Shown in pieces: positions 38,151 through 47,270 of a stretch of DNA of 64,000 nucleotides. Both the position numbers and the translations under genes were made by a program. Origin of the DNA: Entophlyctis helioformis (lineage: Eukaryota > Chytridiomycota > Chytridiomycetes > Chytridiales > Chytriomycetaceae). Every line of letters begins with the position of its first letter. The first letter of the stretch is position 1. Location: the NCBI GenBank assembly GCA_025526915.1, contig JAHLKH010000140.1, forward strand, positions 1-64,000, in the 5' to 3' direction. The notes under the pieces were generated by a model, which did no database searches, was not told where the DNA came from, and was given only the letters and a program-made list of their open reading frames with translations.

Positions 38151-38392
38151 ACGAGGGGTGGGCAATAGGGCGAGGGAATACCGGCAAACCGCCGGCAAAT
38201 GGCCCGACATTCATCCAATTACCAAGCGTTTTGGAATTGGATTCGACCCGAGAGGCGACGAATGCAAGCCCACATATCACGTGATTGAAGGTTCGAGTCA
38301 GCAAAGAACATGCGACGACAGGCGGGCGAGGCACATCCAACCAGGGGCTTACCTTGCACCATTGTTTGAACAATGATGTGATAAGTGACCCG
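38151..38392 (-). other. 3' flank of the Fanzor gene with hairpins; possible guide-RNA region
   Basis: Convergent gap between COP1 and the Fanzor stop. It contains a long near-palindrome at 38215-38240 (ccaattaccaa pairing with ttggaattgg, one bulge, small loop), a ccggc/gccgg pair near 38181-38195, and cattgtt-tg-aacaatg at 38360-38375. In TnpB and Fanzor systems the guide RNA is usually encoded at the 3' side of the nuclease gene, so this is the first place to look. The structure could equally be a terminator or incidental. Confidence 0.3.
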
Positions 38393-41300
38393 TTAGGTCG
38401 ATTGGGAGGTGCCCCGATTCAAAGTGTTGGTGGTTGTGCTGGAAGTCAGAGCACGTGGAGTGGCACTTGACTTGCTGGCACGCTGTCTGCGTGTTGGACG
38501 CTGCTGGACGACAGGCGGATCTGGTGCTGGAGGCTGCTGGACGACAGGAGGATCGACTGGCGTGTGCATCAAATAGAGCGGCCGGTGTCCAAAGAGCAGA
38601 TGCCACAGTGCGACCATCCCGATGTTGGTGGCTCCAAGCACATCGCGGTGGTAGACAGTCTTGCATGGTATGCACTCGTAGCGTCGCAGGTTGGTGCGGT
38701 TCTTGTCTGGGATCCGCTGCTTGCACTGCGGGCACATCTGGCTGGTCAGGTTCTCGTTGCAGCGGTAGATCTGTGTGTGTGTCAGTTGGTGCACAGATGG
38801 ATGGATGGATGGATGGACAGCGTGGCATCAGACGCACATAGGCATATCCAGACGACCGCAGATGCCTGATGAGAAACTTCTCAAACACAGCATGCCGGCC
38901 ACCTTGGCCTGTAAAGTCGATGCCAAATGCCCAGACAACGGGAATGTCCTTCTCTGGGTTGCTGACAGGGAGGCCTTGAGACGCAGCTGATGCGCGCTCT
39001 CCAGTCTTCGATCCTGCCAGCTTCATGATGCCCTCAAGAGCGTTTCCGCGAATAGACATGCTGTTGCTGCGCTTGGTGAACCGCTTGGCCTTGACCTTCT
39101 GTGGAATGCCATGCCATGCCATGCCATCCAGTGCAATCAGCATGGCGATCAAGCAGCATGGCGGTCATGTCAATGGGCATCCAGAAACAGAGAAAACGTA
39201 CCCGTGCATTCAGGAATGGCGAGCAGTACGCACGGCAGCGCAGATCCCAAAAGGCTCTCTCGCCTGCTGTGGCGTTTGGATCGGCATGCTTTGCTGTCTT
39301 GAATGCAATGGCCGCCTGGATGTCGGCTGCCTTGGCATATCGATTGTTGAGCCTGGCACAGGAGGCAGTTGCTGTGAGTTGATCAGGTCAAGAGTGCCCG
39401 TGGCAGAGTCATTGCATGCATACCACCGCTGAAGGCTGTGCTCGGCTCGTGCCATGCCAGAGGAGAGCACGTAGTTGGACTCGAGGGTATAGGTGAAGGT
39501 TGCCAGATCGACCAGCATGCTGGACGCGCCATACATGTACCGCTCGCCCCAATCAATGCCGACAATACGCACAAACCGGTAGCCCTTGTTGGTGAACAAC
39601 TTGTTGGCTTTGACAATGTTGAGCAATCGCTGAGAGGCGTAGAAGCTGAGCTTGCCCTGTCATGCCATGACATGAGTGAGGAATGTGCAATGCATGTGCA
39701 CCAAAGCGCGAGGTTGGCATGCAAGTGGCTTACAGGATTGGGCGCTTTTGGCTTGGCGGCTGATGGGTCGGCAGGATCGGCGGCTGTGGATGGCATGTCA
39801 GTCGGTGTGGACAACAAGTGTGCGTCTGGATTGGCACAGCAACTCACATTCGCCATCCAAGTGATCATGCCCATCATGCCCATCGTCATCATCATCATCA
39901 TCATCATCATCAGGCATGCCATCAGCAAGCCACGGCTGCTCGCCTAAAGATGCCATGTTGGAGCATGCAGATCAAGGCGGCAGTCAGAACCAATGTGTGC
40001 ACCAAAGCATTCAAGCACGCCACATACTGCGAGGCGACTCTGGACGGTCTGTGCGATAGTCCAGCGCCAGCTGAAAGATGCTGTATCCATCGGTCTTGAT
40101 GCTGCCCACCGCGGTCGGTTTGCTTGGAATTGCAGGAGGAAGACCATCGATCACGGCGTCTATAAACTCCTGGCGCTCCTTGCCAACCAGACCCTCGTGC
40201 TCAGCCAGTTGCATCGCATCAGCAATGACTGCGTCATTTGCTTGGGCCTGCTCAAACACCTCCTTGTCGGCCTCGTCTGGCGTCTGATAGCGGCCTTTCT
40301 TGGGGCGGAGGCCGGGAAGGAGTATGTTGAGGATACAGAGCTCCTTGCTATTGCTGAACGCCTTCTTGATTGTCGTGTTGGATGACGCGAGGCCCAAGCT
40401 GGCTTTTTGGTAGTCTTGGATAAAAGTGCAGTGTCAGCATCATATCATGTAGACATGGCATAAACAAGTGCGACCTACTGAGTACAGCAAGGAGCTGCAG
40501 TCGCAAGTATGCCAAAGCAGCACTTTGCTTGCCACGGATGCGATCATCACTACTCCCCATCACCGCCCAAAAGAGCGTTGTCTCGGTGATGAGGATGAAT
40601 GGGTCGCGGCTGGCTGCTTGCGGGCACAGCTTGTTTGTCGTGCCAGCAAGCTTGGACAGCTCGTAAAAGATCACGATCTCTGACCGAGACACATCAGGCA
40701 CCAGCGTCTTGAGCTCGTGCAGCTCTTGCGGGACTGTATCAATACCGCTGTCCTCAGTGGCCGAGGAAGAGCTGGATGCCACGTCCTTGGTGGTGGCTGC
40801 CTTCCTGCCCCGTCGCTTCTTGGGCCTGCCGCCCTTGTTGGCTGACGAAGAGGTGGACCGGCCCCGCTTGAGACTTGAGGTGGGAGGAGCAGTGTCCAAA
40901 GTGGCCAGCGGTGTGGCGTCCTCGATCGCCGGTGGTGTAGCGTCCTTGGCAGCCTTCGTAGCAGCAGCCTTGGCGGCCTTGGCAGCCTTGGCGGTCTTGA
41001 AAAGTGCCGCAATCCACACTCTCACGTCCTCAATGGATGCACTGGGCATCATCTTGAGGGCTGCAGTGACGGCCAGCTCAGACTGGCTAGAGATGTAGTG
41101 CCGCGCGAGCATGCCACACACATCCCTGGCCAGATTGCTGTAAATGTCACTCCTTGCATTCGCGCAAAGGCTGCCATCAAGCCTGTAGGGCAAGACAGCC
41201 TCCATAGTGCCCGCATGCACAGCGTCTGCCGTCTGCGCACTTGTGTGCATCAAGGCCGACAGCTCTGCATCTGCCTGCATCACGGCTGACAGGATCGCGT

Positions 41301-44300
41301 CGGCCTGGATTGTCACCGTCTGCTGCGTCGCGTCCATCATGTCGGCATCCATCATGGCTGCTCGCATCGTGTCCATCTGTGCAATGTCCATCATGGCTGC
41401 TTGCCGCGCGTCTTTCTGGAACGTGTCGCTGTGTGCCGTGGCCGCCTGCTGCATTGCATCAATCAGTAGCGTGTCCTTCAGCATTGTGCACGTCTGCATC
41501 ATGTCCATCCGTACCGTGTCATCCTGCAGTTTGGCTGCGTTGGTTTGCAGCACCCTCCGCGTCCAGGTGCGATGGATCGTCATTTGCATGACTGTTACGA
41601 TCCAGGAGTGGATGGCATGCTTTGTTGCTTGTGGCTGCACCATCATGCTGTCCGCCAGGACATAGCCAAGATGGCGCAGCAGCATGTCCACAGCGCCGCC
41701 TCCACCTGATATACTGCTGGTGAGGGCTGTAAGCAGCTCATTTGCTGATGGAACTGCTGCTGCTGGTGGTGGTGGTGGCGGTTGGACGGCTGAAGATGAA
41801 GCGCCGGTGCTGCTGGCTGCTGTCGGCTGATTGTGCACATCATGCTCGTCCTGGATGCATGGGTCGTCAGGCTGCACAGGCAGCTCGTGCTCATCGTGCT
41901 CGTTCTGCTCGTCCTGCTCGTTCTGCTCGTCCTGCTCGTTCTGCTCGTCCTGATCGTCCTGATTGTCGAGGTCGCCATGCATGTTGGGTTGCTTGGCAAT
42001 CTTGGCAGTATCAAAGGCGCAGATCTTGAGAGCCGTGTCACTCTCAAGAGTCACCAAGCTGCCATAGCGAGGGATGTTTGTGTCGCTGCTGTGCGGGCCG
42101 GTGCCGTACATGTGCCAAACAATGATGCCCTGCTTGTGAACGCATCCACCTGACAAGAGCGTCGCGCTCTCGTCCTCATCAAAGTCCTCCGGGTTGACAT
42201 AGTAATACTGCGTCAGCTTGCCTTGGCTTGCCTCCAGGACACAGTACTCCAGAGGCAGAGGCGCGTCTGCATCCAGCTTGACCAGATCCGCGACCATGGC
42301 GCCGATCAAGGCAAGGGCAGCACGCCACAAGCCGGCCGTGAAATAGTAGACTGTGAGGGTGGTGTCGTGGCTGATTGAACTGGGTGTCTGCTCGGCGAGT
42401 GGTGTCTTGGTTTGGGGCCCAAAAAACTTGGTGTTTGCGAGATCGCATGACTGCATCTCCTGCATACCACACAAGTCAGCATCCACAAAGCCAAGCAAAC
42501 AGAGCAGCATGCCGATCAAACCCCATACCGCCATTTTGACAATCTGCTCAGGGCGGCTGTGTGCATTGCCTTTAGGTCTTGGCTGTCCTTTGGGATGGGT
42601 GGCCGCGGCAAGTGTCATGACTGGCATCGCAATCATGCGGCCGAGCTTTGCAAGCTTCTGACGAGTTGCCACTCGACTGCCAGCAACCCATCTGTGGCAT
42701 GACACACGTGTCAGCAAGCACATTCAAGGCACATGACATGCCATATGTCGCGTACGCCTTCTTCTTGCCAACAGTTCCCGCCTTGCGAGCATGCAGGCCT
42801 GACTTCTTCTTGTTCTCTCTGATGATCTCCTGTAGTGTGGCCTTCTCTTTTTTCTTGGCACGCTCCTTTGTGTGTGCAGCCCGCTTGGCTGCCGTGAATT
42901 GGAATGGCGCCTGTGACGGTTGGATGCAGCATCAGGCGGCCATTCCAAGTGCACCAAACACAGCCACGATCGCCAATGGTGCACCAAACTCACCGTTGTC
43001 TCAGTGTCGGCAAGATCGCCAACGGGAAAGGTCTTGGAGCATGCCAGTGCTGCGAAAATGTTGTTGGACAACTGTGGTGGCTTGGGTGGCGGTGGAGGAG
43101 GGCCAACCTGTGGAGTGGGATGGTGAGCAATCGCGCCAAATCATTCCATGCACATGCAGTCAGTGGAAGTCGAGACGCACTGCACTTTGCTCAATGATGG
43201 ACTGCAGCAGAGTGACGGCCTTTTGGCGCTGATTGATGAGTGTCGGCGGTTTGGCGTTTTCTGGATGTGGACCTATGGGGTGCTCCAGGAAATACAGCCA
43301 GGCTGAGGCCTTGTCATGGATAGCAGCAACAATGGATCGCGGTGCAACTCGCGTGGTCATCCTGCCGTGGTACTTGACTTTCTGCGTCTCTGTGTCCAGT
43401 ACTATGCATTCAACACAAATGGATCTGTGAGTGGATGCTGTTGAATCATTTCAATGCAATCAACACCTACTGGGAGTGGATGTATGCCGGTGGGATGCGC
43501 ATGGCGGATTGGCAATCTTGTCCAGCTGCGTCTGCATTCTCATTGCTGCGTTCTGTCCAGAAGCAATGGATCAAGTCAGCCGCATTCAAAATCAGCAAAT
43601 GCACGTGGTGCAAGAGCAACAGCATGCATTCAAGCCATGCAAACATACCAATGCGCGATAGATTGGCTCATCTGCTGGGAGGAGCTCAAAAATGCCATCT
43701 GCTCCAAGAAACTGCTCGCTGGCAATCTGCAGCAGCTGGGCACTCGCTGCTTTGCAGATGGCCGCCAGGATGTCGCGACGCATGACAGCATCGTAGCTGC
43801 TCGCAAGGCGGTTGACTGTGCACCTGATGATGGTGTCGAGTGCCACATGGCAACCCTTCACCTCAATGAAGGCAGCATCCAACCGCCTGCTGCCAACAGT
43901 GCTGCTGACAAGCTGCTCGACCCTGCCACGTGTCAGGTGGACAAGCTGGACGCCGTTCTCAGCCTGCTGCTGCTGCTGCGCAGTATGGCTCAAGCAGCAT
44001 CCATCCATCAAGCACCTGCACAATAACAAGATCGCAGCATCAGAAACAGAAACTCAGTGTCAGTTTTGCCAGAAACGCCACAGATTCCATGCATTCATAC
44101 TTCATTCCAACAGATGGAGTCGTGTTGACATCCATGTGGTTGGTGTGGTCGGCTTGAGGCTCAGATCTGTGCAAGGCATTCAAACGCGTCAATGCCATAT
44201 GTCCATGACATCCTTCAAGAATAAACATACCTCGCGACGATCGGCGCTGTGATTGCACCAGCAGAGGCCCCAACCTCATTCCGGTTGACAAAGACTTCAA

Positions 44301-45707
44301 ATGCGTTCTTGAATGCCTGCACAAGGCTCTCATCACCATTCTTGACCAGCTCCTCGATGTACGCGTCCCTGACGCCGTCCATGAACGCCTTGGCCTCATT
44401 AGGAGTCTCGAGGATCGCGCAGAGGTCAGCCGCCTTGATGTTGAGCTGTTTGGCCTTGGCATCAAACCGCGCATTGACAAACTTGACCGCGGCGGCGATT
44501 CCTGGCAGGGAATGCAAGCAGAATCGCGCATGTAGACAAAGAATGGCATGTGAGTGATGGCAGATACTACAATACAGGCGCGGCAACTCACCATGGCCAG
44601 GGCGGCCAAAATAATCTGTCCTGGACAGTGCAGCGACCAGCTGGCATGCTCCAGCAAAGTTGCGCACGCCCAAGACAGATGCCATGGTGGCAAGCCCACC
44701 ATGGTTGTAGGATCGCATCTGCACAAGCTGCCCATGCTCCAAGTGCGTCAAAATGACCGCACAGTGCCCAGCACAATGTGCCACCAGATCAGAGTCATTG
44801 GCAATGACAATGATCGGCTGGTCACTGTCACAGAATACAGACTGTGAGCCATCAACTACAGCAGAAGAATGCAAGGCGATCTAACCTGGACTTGCGAACA
44901 CGGCAGGCAATGCACACGTCTGCCTCATAGTCGCATGGGCAGACTGTGCACGCCTCCTTGGATCCAGCCAGCTCTGAGAGAGCCTCATAGATCGCCTTCT
45001 TATCGGCGATTGTAAGGCAGAAGAAGCGGTGGAGGGCGTGCTTCTCTGTCCTTGATGGCCAACAGCAGACAATGGTCAGTAAGGCAACCAGACAGTACAC
45101 AGCGGCGATCTTACTTTGAAAGTGAACCAGAGTGGCGACCTTCCTGACGCTGGAAGGTGTCCGCAGAACCTTGGCTGCCGCATGCAGCATGTTGTTGGTG
45201 CGGCTGTTATGGACCAGCTTGAGGCCCAGGTCGCCAAGCTGGCCATCCACATGGAAGCGGATGGTGTGGCCGCCGCCAAGGGATGCCATGAACTGCTCAA
45301 AGGCCGGCTGGATGATGGCTTTCCAGCCGGCCTTGGAGCCTGGCTGGCTGATGGCGGCTGTTGCGACTAATGCTGGGTGAAAGATGCTCAAGAAGTCGAT
45401 GTGCAGCATCCCGCTGATGAACTGGGTGGTTGCGGCTGTTGTTGTTGCGGCTGTTGTTGTTGCAGCTGTTGCAGTCTGCTGTTGCAGCGGCGGCTGTTGC
45501 AGAGGTGGCTGTTGTGGCAGCATGCTGTGGAGCACACGCTGCACAGCATGGCCAAAAGTCTTGCCGGTGTGGTCGCAGACGGCACGGCGTAGCTTGAAGG
45601 CTCTCAGCAGGCCTACAAAAGTCATGCTGGTGCTGCTGGTGCGTGGGGTGTCTGTATCTGTGTTTACGAGAAAAGAATCGGAGCGTCTGGCGGAGTTGAA
45701 CTTTCAT
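38393..45707 (-). CDS. XPG/FEN1-like nuclease fused to Fanzor (TnpB-like RNA-guided nuclease)
   Basis: Nineteen exons: 45707-45668, 45612-45115, 45045-44886, 44824-44592, 44501-44231, 44166-44101, 44015-43649, 43552-43471, 43389-43181, 43107-42994, 42910-42756, 42691-40479, 40414-40028, 39943-39848, 39783-39734, 39656-39424, 39352-39202, 39098-38838, 38770-38393. All phases agree and the sum is 5,964 nt (1,987 residues). Residues 1-420 match XPG/FEN1: HIDFLSIFH (D86), HVDG (D136), CPCDYEADVCIA (E220, D222), IANDSDLVAH (D243, D245), SRTDYFGRPGHG (D303). A Gln-rich and basic linker follows, then a long disordered region with DEQNEQ repeats and an NLS-like KKRRGRK patch near 1350. The C-terminus is Fanzor: IKTDGYSIFQLALDY, RuvC-I GIDWGERYMYG (D1682), FGIDFTG, ENLTSQMCPQC (E1868), YECIPC, and RuvC-III VYHRDVLGATNI (D1905). 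Two separate genes cannot be excluded without RNA data. Confidence 0.82.
41878..41958 (-). repeat. Short coding repeat in the Fanzor fusion
   Basis: Alternating gctcgtcct and gctcgttct units encode a D/E/Q/N-rich run (DEQNEQ repeated). Located in the disordered region of exon 12, between the XPG and RuvC parts. Such runs are prone to length change. Confidence 0.9.
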
Positions 45708-45863
45708 TGCTGACACAGACAGAGAGCGAGTCGATAGAGAGCGAGCAGTCTGGCACTCGCCGCCTACTGTCCAACAGCCATAAGGGAGCAGCGAGCACAG
45801 CCAACAGCCAGGCGTTCAAGATGTGGTCGTGTGTTGCTGGCACAGTCATTGATGTGATGCCAC

Positions 45864-47027
45864 TCAGTGCGCAGCTCGACATGCACTGTGCAGCATCACT
45901 CTGCGTGTCATGAGCTGCATTGCAAAGAGCCTCTCTCCGCGTGTCGTCTTCTCAGTCAATGTCCCATTGCATCCAACAAGCGTCCTGATATGCATCTGCA
46001 TTGTGACCCAGTGCGATGCAGTTGGTGTTGGCTGACTGGCCAGCTGGTCCATGGACAGGTTGGTCGTTGACGCACTGCCTGCATCGCCCCTCTGCTCTGG
46101 ATCGTCCTCGTCAACAAACACAGTGCATGCAAGACTGGGATCGTCAGGACCGTCGCCATCATCATCGTCGTTGTGGTTGTTGAATGAATGGAGGATGCAT
46201 GGTCTGTCTGGCCACTCCAGTTGCTGCTCAGTGGATCGCATCCAAGATGCCATCGCACCAAGTGCAATGTGGCCAGACACGCCTGCCAGCACTCGCGTCC
46301 TCCTCACCAATCTCGCCTGGATCAGTGTCGTCGAGTGTGCTGCTCATCGAGTGTGCTGCCACTGCCTTGTTTGGCATCCAAGTCGGCATGCCAATCCAGC
46401 TATCCAGCAAGCAGTTCCTGCAGCCAACTCCAAGGATTGATCCATTGAGCACGTCTCAGTGGCTGCTCATCACTGCTGCTGCATCCCATGTCGCAGTCGG
46501 AAAGCACCAGACAGCTTGGTCCTGCGATGCCAATGCTCTCGCTGTCCTCTTGAACAACAACCAGATCGCCCTGTTCACAGCCGTCTTGCCAACGTCTCTT
46601 GTTGCTGTTTGGACCCATGAGACATGCACACAGTCAGTGCCAAGACCACACAGACACGGCCGTCAGACTGCTGTACCATCGACGTCGATGGGCAATGGAG
46701 CATGCCTGGACAGACAGCGAGTCAACGCACCTGCTTGCCTGTCTGCAGCCTGCCTTCTGTCCGCCCGCCTTGTTGGGCACGCTTCTCAGACGGCCACGAC
46801 CACGCTGCTCTGCTGGACTGCCTGCTGCATGGCCTGCTGCATGCCACTTTGAGCAGTGCCTCTCGCAGTCTCCCCTGAAGGACTTGTCCAGCAAGCGAGT
46901 GCTGTCCCATATCCGTGCTGACGCCTGCGTTGCCGTTGTCGTTTGGCTCGTTGTCGCTTGTGTGCAGTTGGGCGGCAAGTGCAGCAGCGTCTGGATCTGG
47001 CATGGCGCGTTGCTGCTGTGCTCGCAT
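45864..47027 (-). CDS. Unresolved minus-strand coding region upstream of the XPG-Fanzor gene
   Basis: Begins with MRAQQQRAM at 47027, the same nine residues and flanking DNA as the XPG-like gene of island A, then continues PDPDAAALAAQLHTSD and on to GRLREALLKVACSRPC, with a GTGCGT donor near 46725. Further down the same strand are protein-like stretches: KRRWQDGCEQGDLVVVQEDS ending PWSWLQELLAG (46618-46400), and an acidic segment HNDDDDGDGPDDPSLACTVF then VDEDDPEQRGDAGS (within 46253-45864). I could not find introns joining these in phase. It may be a short accessory gene, a decayed gene, or 5' coding sequence of the fusion. No domain is recognised. Confidence 0.35.
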
Positions 47028-47144
47028 CGCGCAGTGTCTGCACTGTGCAAGGGCTCTCTAGATCGACCAATCACAGCGATCCCACCAAGATCGACCAATC
47101 ACAGCGATTCCACCAGGATTGACCAATCACAGCGATTCCACCAG
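47001..47144. promoter_or_regulatory. Leader module plus three phased CCAAT boxes (island B)
   Basis: Cores at 47001-47030 and 47048-47073 match the island A leader, separated here by an extra 17 bases. A 28-bp tandem repeat starts at 47061, 47089 and 47117, each copy carrying gaccaatcacagcgat. CCAAT lies at 47067, 47095 and 47123. It sits between the minus-strand start at 47027 and the plus-strand carrier start at 47271, so it may drive both. Confidence 0.65.
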
Positions 47145-47270
47145 GGGTAATGGTATGAGAACCGGGCCAAAACTTGAGCTCGTGACTGCGAGGCGCTTTG
47201 ACACACACACGCAGGCACACACACATACGAGAGCAGCACCTCGGCAACGGCATCCACCGCATCTACTCCA

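Follow-up and report, generated by a model that had tools for sequence, protein, structure and literature searches.

A gene model joining an XPG/FEN-type nuclease to a Fanzor in a high-copy DNA transposon of the chytrid Entophlyctis helioformis

Fanzors are eukaryotic relatives of TnpB and are related to the CRISPR nucleases. A stretch of 64,000 nucleotides (nt) from the chytrid fungus Entophlyctis helioformis (contig JAHLKH010000140.1, positions 1 to 64,000, here called the window) raises the question of whether such an enzyme can share one polypeptide with a second nuclease, of the XPG/FEN type, and what this pairing would be for. An earlier note on this DNA had described one predicted protein in which a complete-looking flap nuclease is joined to a complete-looking Fanzor. 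At the level of the gene model the fusion of the two holds, and the parts encoded are, in order, a FEN/EXO1-type nuclease, about 900 residues without a recognised fold and a Fanzor1-like part, about 1,900 residues in all. As to purpose, we see an even chance, judging from the sequence and by analogy, that the 5' nuclease tethered to the Fanzor within this polypeptide of some 1,900 residues couples an RNA-guided cut to homologous repair.

The fusion is supported by the recurrence of one exon structure at different loci. The protein was placed with a purpose-written spliced aligner on 18 loci including the window, the other 17 being 48-95% identical to the reference, and subfamilies that are only 48-61% identical share intron positions and phases. 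Those at 521/0, 622/0, 660/0, 1604/0, 1682/2 and 1819/0 (residue/phase) are present in all 18 loci, those at 712/2, 766/0, 1427/1, 1556/1 and 1732/0 in 17, and that at 1588/1 in 15. Intron 549/1 is found in 14 loci and within five residues of this position in four more, and intron 399/2 in 12, with a further six within five residues. Between residues 78 and 1895, on either side of which the diverged loci are variable and poorly aligned, none of the 18 loci has an in-frame stop, and four (L017, L024, L033 and L098) are free of frameshifts over the same range. Two of these require extra intron-sized gaps, possibly insertions, of 222 and 270 nt in L017 and 158 nt in L024.

The two parts also lie together across the genome. 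Both the RuvC exon and the third XPG exon have at least 150 scored genomic matches (the best 150 of 279 and of 160 candidates, respectively), some of them pieces of one copy, which rules out a single-gene reading. Homologues that always keep the parts as separate genes would, by the earlier note, have spoken against the fusion, and the result was the opposite: 98 of the 150 RuvC matches listed have an XPG match no more than 20 kb upstream and in the same orientation, and no in-frame stop separates the parts at any of the 18 loci. The spacing is 4.6-7.8 kb in 83 of these 98 pairs, and other arrangements within 20 kb among the matches listed amount to three pairs with XPG downstream and six on opposite strands. 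The remaining 52 of the 150 RuvC matches have no partner among the XPG matches listed, a figure to which the length of both lists and contig ends may contribute and which is hence no proof of separate elements. Among 20 loci fetched by RuvC similarity, tblastn recovered at least 80% of the XPG part in 11 and less in L010, L012, L014, L019, L020, L021, L023, L025 and L027, where some of the fetched stretches or contigs end first; L027 has Fanzor sequence only across its 9.9 kb.

In the window, the gene runs on the minus strand from 45625 to 38393 in 18 exons bounded throughout by GT-AG, a model built from the intron phases and the diverged loci L029-L033. The XPG part begins in exon 1 (45115..45625), with the first two metal ligands at codons 45397-45395 and 45247-45245, and continues through exon 2 (44886..45050), with the YEAD ligands (44926-44924 and 44920-44918), and exon 3 (44592..44824), with the NDSD ligands (44796-44794 and 44790-44788) and the last ligand (44616-44614), to its end in exon 4 (44231..44501). 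The middle region takes up exons 5 (43649..44015), 6 (43471..43552), 7 (43181..43401), 8 (42994..43107) and the lysine-rich exon 9 (42756..42910). Exon 10 (42529..42691), entered in phase 2 and left in phase 0, forms the joint between the halves, and the long exon 11 (40479..42459) holds more of the middle region together with the start of the Fanzor N-terminal part, which continues in exon 12 (40028..40414). An acidic linker of variable length (exon 13, 39848..39943) is followed by the short linker of exon 14 (39734..39783), 50 nt here against 26 nt in L026, L028 and L031, a difference of 24 nt that keeps the frame. Exon 15 (39424..39656) encodes RuvC I with the catalytic D (39554-39552), exons 16 (39202..39352) and 17 (38838..39098) the further Fanzor RuvC part, and exon 18 (38393..38770) the catalytic E (38755-38753), the zinc ribbon, the RuvC III D (38644-38642), a variable tail and the stop. 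Reading 39847-39784 as coding was dropped, as this segment is intron 13.

The earlier description of GT/AG exons with matching phases joining both parts is borne out by exons 2-18, which give 1,769 stop-free codons in the window. Its count of 19 exons and exactly 5,964 nt is replaced by 18 exons and 5,819 nt, a length that is not a multiple of three because of a 1-nt lesion in XPG exon 1: compared with all six other aligned copies, the window copy is one nt short between 45161 and 45160, and so it cannot be called complete. The frame crosses this lesion only if the 64-nt intron 45114-45051 (176/2), which 15 of the 18 loci have in an identical position and phase, is kept as coding, which the exact open reading frame of the earlier note, inferred here as that note listed no exons, probably did, thereby hiding the lesion. 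The first ATG is more likely that at 45625 than that at 45707, because the acceptor required by an upstream exon is missing in L026 and L028. Three deposited protein models (P0003, P0005 and P0009) begin MTFVGLL, in agreement with 45625, and P0005 has the same start and splicing through exon 3 before reading into intron 3. Against this start, deposited model P0001 begins at the upstream ATG at 45707, a start that was rejected on account of the missing acceptor.

For the N-terminal part, the earlier observation of acidic residues with FEN1-like spacing stands: the seven ligands are separated by 50, 86, 2, 21, 2 and 58 residues in the first row of the XPG alignment A1 and are invariant in all seven rows. 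All seven are present in 15 of the 18 loci, while L014, L016 and L029 are unaligned in exon 1, with L014 also gapped at two exon-3 ligands. In a Foldseek search, the first 16 matches were 5' nucleases with EXO1 at the top, none of them reaching E 0.001 with a query model whose predicted local distance difference test score (pLDDT) was 42.6; T4 RNase H, T5 FEN and XRN1/XRN2/Rat1 are also among the structural matches. The single-sequence fold of P0001 had a pLDDT of 38.8. An hhalign comparison of A1 with the host FEN1/EXO1 places the ligands in register at a probability of 3.6% and E 0.012, and a PHROGs search with A1 returned nothing convincing. Nine proteins of the XPG family came up in a protein search, all of them from E. 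helioformis, a restriction that may be due to the search. The N-terminal part is a predicted FEN/EXO1-type 5' nuclease that would cut 5' flaps or resect ends.

For the C-terminal part, the RuvC and zinc-ribbon motifs of a Fanzor that had been reported are confirmed. All 18 loci retain the RuvC D, the E ahead of the zinc ribbon and the D after it, together with the four zinc-ribbon cysteines, and the catalytic D, E and D fall at positions matching those described for Fanzor in the relevant part of PMC11423790. PF07282 matches all six members of the Fanzor alignment A2 (best E 2.8e-11; above cut-off in the window), and TnpB models likewise match six of six, below cut-off in the member shown. Sequence searching with profile A2 found no solved Fanzor structure against which WED and REC domains could be placed, and PDB sequence searches with A1, A2 and A7 gave nothing relevant. 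A protein search with the Fanzor part yielded none among 7,994 candidates, possibly flooded by repetitive words, and is hence no evidence of absence elsewhere.

The gene is not a lone one but lies in a multicopy transposon, which the earlier note had missed. From the sequence comparison, window positions 38201 to 47168, with the gene on the minus strand, are one slightly decayed copy of a high-copy DNA transposon of about 9 kb in this chytrid: the copy measures about 8.97 kb, similarity to 20 further copies stops at both of its sides, and close copies are more than 90% identical over most aligned stretches. The terminal inverted repeat on the gene's 3' side (38201..38226) is a family 26-mer with 171 genomic occurrences at up to three mismatches, against none for a reversed control. 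That on the 5' side (47146..47168) is an imperfect match to the opposite end and has 53 genomic matches, several of them pieces of one copy. Ends were inspected in 25 elements, and in the 20 with both ends readable, target-site duplications were flush and 8 bp long in six, a near match in five, weak in two and absent in seven; none was found for the window copy at 38201-47168. The upstream region (45626..47145) is common to the subfamilies and holds no convincing second gene. Open reading frames at 45.9-47.1 kb were rejected, as their frame is broken by indels, and the only upstream stretch with a clear third-position excess is 45956-46303 (23, 22, 49).

KDZ elements generate 8-bp target duplications. 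KDZ transposase matches occur in the genome (G000:C334:6404-7253, C271:9823-10062 and C396:222-449; three of four with internal stops), remnants from which a transposase might be supplied in trans. No MULE transposase was found in the E. helioformis genome. Such a source, together with inverted-repeat ends and 8-bp duplications that suggest a cut-and-paste transposase, would suit an unlikely alternative in which the XPG part serves the movement of the element, processing flaps, hairpins or 5' ends left by excision and insertion by a transposase that perhaps acts in trans. This account would, however, make the covalent tie to a guided nuclease unnecessary, and the XPG, middle, Fanzor and upstream parts of the element gave no sound Pfam match to a transposase.

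As for its surroundings, the element sits between a WD-repeat-like gene (up to 38150) and a mitochondrial-carrier-like gene (from about 47202, plus strand), both named by eye, and its right end is about 100 bases short of the likely start of the carrier gene. An additional partial match to the RuvC exon (87%) lies on the same contig outside the window (G000:C140:70111-70347). Elsewhere, at L076 (G000:C2, near 291,300), a host FEN1-like gene is directly trailed by opposite-strand Fanzor zinc-ribbon sequence of the transposon family.

Comparison of the proportions of nonsynonymous and synonymous differences (pN/pS) was made for eight pairs of loci, with synonymous sites near saturation in the distant pairs. 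The ratio is below 1 in all eight pairs for the XPG part (0.21-0.61) and is 0.35-0.58 and 0.44-0.58 for the two Fanzor parts. In the middle region it is 0.20-1.08 for the first part and 0.46-0.74 for the second, the value of 1.08 (L028 against L026) depending on a pS of 0.06. Judged from these sequences, both sets of catalytic residues are under constraint. The window and L028 differ at synonymous sites by a dS of 1.36 in XPG against 0.17 in the RuvC part, and in the upstream 1.5 kb most 100-nt blocks are more than 90% alike (from 76 to 98% for L026 and L028); therefore both ends of the element are common to the subfamilies, and it is the XPG-middle block that has diverged. On this sequence comparison, the element ends are shared between subfamilies through exchange or conversion. 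Intron 13 (39847-39784; 64 nt), within the homogenised 3' block, varies less from one subfamily to another than do the exons that precede it.

At the 3' end of the element, the last 146 nt or so are strongly conserved in 27 copies. A donor-like AAG|GTRAG stands behind the gene in all 27 (window 38201-38345, minus strand), an invariant TGCTGAC lies some 100 nt short of the end of the element, and from AAG|GTRAG to that end there are only two AG in 3,925 nt. This 3' end resembles an intron that would take its acceptor from flanking host DNA; counter to this, AG-free 150-nt intervals also occur elsewhere: of the 63,851 in the window, 96 lack AG on one strand and 595 on the other. The same conserved end, along with the fold shared by XRN1, XRN2 and Rat1, which are among the structural matches, might instead be explained if the XPG part acted on RNA as a 5'-3' exoribonuclease, trimming the element transcript to a Fanzor guide RNA. 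We consider this quite unlikely: DNA nucleases (EXO1, T4 RNase H and T5 FEN) head the structural matches, a guide RNA was not observed, and the 3'-end fold offers no compensatory pairs in its favour.

The element, its copy number, the single frame and the constrained catalytic residues are supported by sequence comparison, and expression, a guide RNA, both nuclease activities and a coupling to repair are inferred. In the coupling that we propose, an RNA from the 3' end of the element would direct the Fanzor part to cut a target, for instance the donor site that the element has left or an allele lacking it, and the tethered 5' nuclease would then trim or resect the 5' ends and flaps at the break. 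Such trimming would favour annealing and homologous repair over simple rejoining, and the homologous repair would retain the element or copy it in. The coupling is suggested because of the enzyme families concerned and because of engineered fusions of a similar design. A bolder and rather doubtful extension is that evolution has here equipped an RNA-guided nuclease with an EXO1/FEN-type 5' nuclease by which it would steer the repair of its own cuts. The element would then spread or persist by guided cutting and homologous copying, and would hardly require a classical transposase of its own, if at all.

Several results weigh against a repair-coupling fusion. One or more frameshifts are present at 14 of the 18 loci, with one in the window, and the spliced aligner may bypass lesions via false introns. 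The XPG_I_2 profile is matched weakly, in five of seven members (best E 0.0024; the member shown scores 15.7 bits where the cut-off is 24.2), PF00867 matches host genes only and none of the transposon copies, and a PDB sequence search with A1 gave no XPG match; the low pLDDT of the XPG structure model and its lack of a Foldseek match at E 0.001 count in the same direction, as does the finding of no compensatory base pairs in the 3'-end fold. Exon 10 is similar across the window type, L030, L031, L032, L033 and L098, less alike in L026 and different in L028 and L029, and so is dissimilar in some subfamilies. Finally, nine deposited protein models were found (187-520 residues), none of which spans both parts, an absence that is neutral to unfavourable for the fusion.

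The early stops of these deposited models, with the differing exon 10 of L026, L028 and L029, would be expected if two proteins were made, with transcripts or translation ending after the XPG-middle part and the Fanzor starting within exon 11 at a methionine after the conserved acceptor, which is the second codon of that exon in 10 of 12 loci (11 of 12 counting the window). This too seems improbable, on a par with RNA trimming, as the phases of exons 9, 10 and 11 fit (2, then 0), the introns 712/2 and 766/0 that flank the joint are each kept in 17 of the 18 loci, L031 has no exon 11 methionine and reads DL, and no in-frame stop lies between the parts. The frameshifts at 14 loci, for their part, together with a RuvC part homogenised between subfamilies (the dS of 0.17 against 1.36 in XPG), would fit a decaying family whose fused gene has no present function. 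We hold this to be very unlikely, given that four of the 18 loci are open and come from diverged subfamilies, that the catalytic residues are kept, and that close copies remain more than 90% identical over most aligned stretches.

The proposed fusion of guided cutting with 5' trimming can be set beside systems already described. In agreement with the earlier note, no fusion joining Fanzor and XPG was found in the open-licence PMC literature, nor was anything found there on Fanzor together with Chytridiomycota; one review mentions both Fanzor and FEN1 (PMC12719977). Fungal Fanzor1 elements, including those of Allomyces and Spizellomyces, have been described (Bao and Jurka 2013, PMC3627910), and the nucleases named alongside them in the relevant part of that paper are separate proteins. 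As far as the element descriptions in PMC3627910 and, for SpuFz1, PMC10432273 extend, several fungal Fanzor1 elements have no recognised transposase, and the present element shares with them the RuvC D-E-D and zinc ribbon, the DNA transposon setting, inverted repeats and short target duplications. None of those described there is fused to XPG/FEN, whereas here the protein reaches about 1,900 residues with an unrecognised middle of about 900. PpFz1 similarly is a Fanzor with an extra domain, but according to PMC11423790 this domain is a RuvC insertion (FRI) binding cyclophilin rather than an N-terminal nuclease. The Rad2/XPG nucleases (EXO1, FEN1, T5 FEN and T4 RNase H) share with the N-terminal part the seven acidic ligands in FEN1-like order and spacing and are its first structural matches; unlike them, it is too diverged for the family profiles, encoded by a transposon and fused to a second nuclease.

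In engineered designs, too, a FEN/EXO1-type 5' nuclease is tethered to an RNA-guided nuclease. According to PMC8945719, ErCas12a with T5 exonuclease fused N-terminally edited efficiently and needed no heatshock, although its authors doubt that exonuclease action alone explains the effect. With the EXO1-Cas9 editor, homologous repair is reported to have increased and end joining to have decreased (PMC11107001). The chytrid protein differs from both in being natural, in having a long middle region and in being known here from its sequence.

A second nuclease in the same frame bears on the question of what Fanzors do for their host elements, and suggests that events after the cut may be part of the answer. 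This nuclease has been kept in frame across subfamilies down to 48% identity, and what may follow the cut can be tested in a culturable chytrid. If the proposed coupling is true, nature would have arrived at a parallel to the 5'-exonuclease fusions with which engineers alter the outcome of repair, and genome-editing enzymes could draw on its evolved linkers and domain orders.

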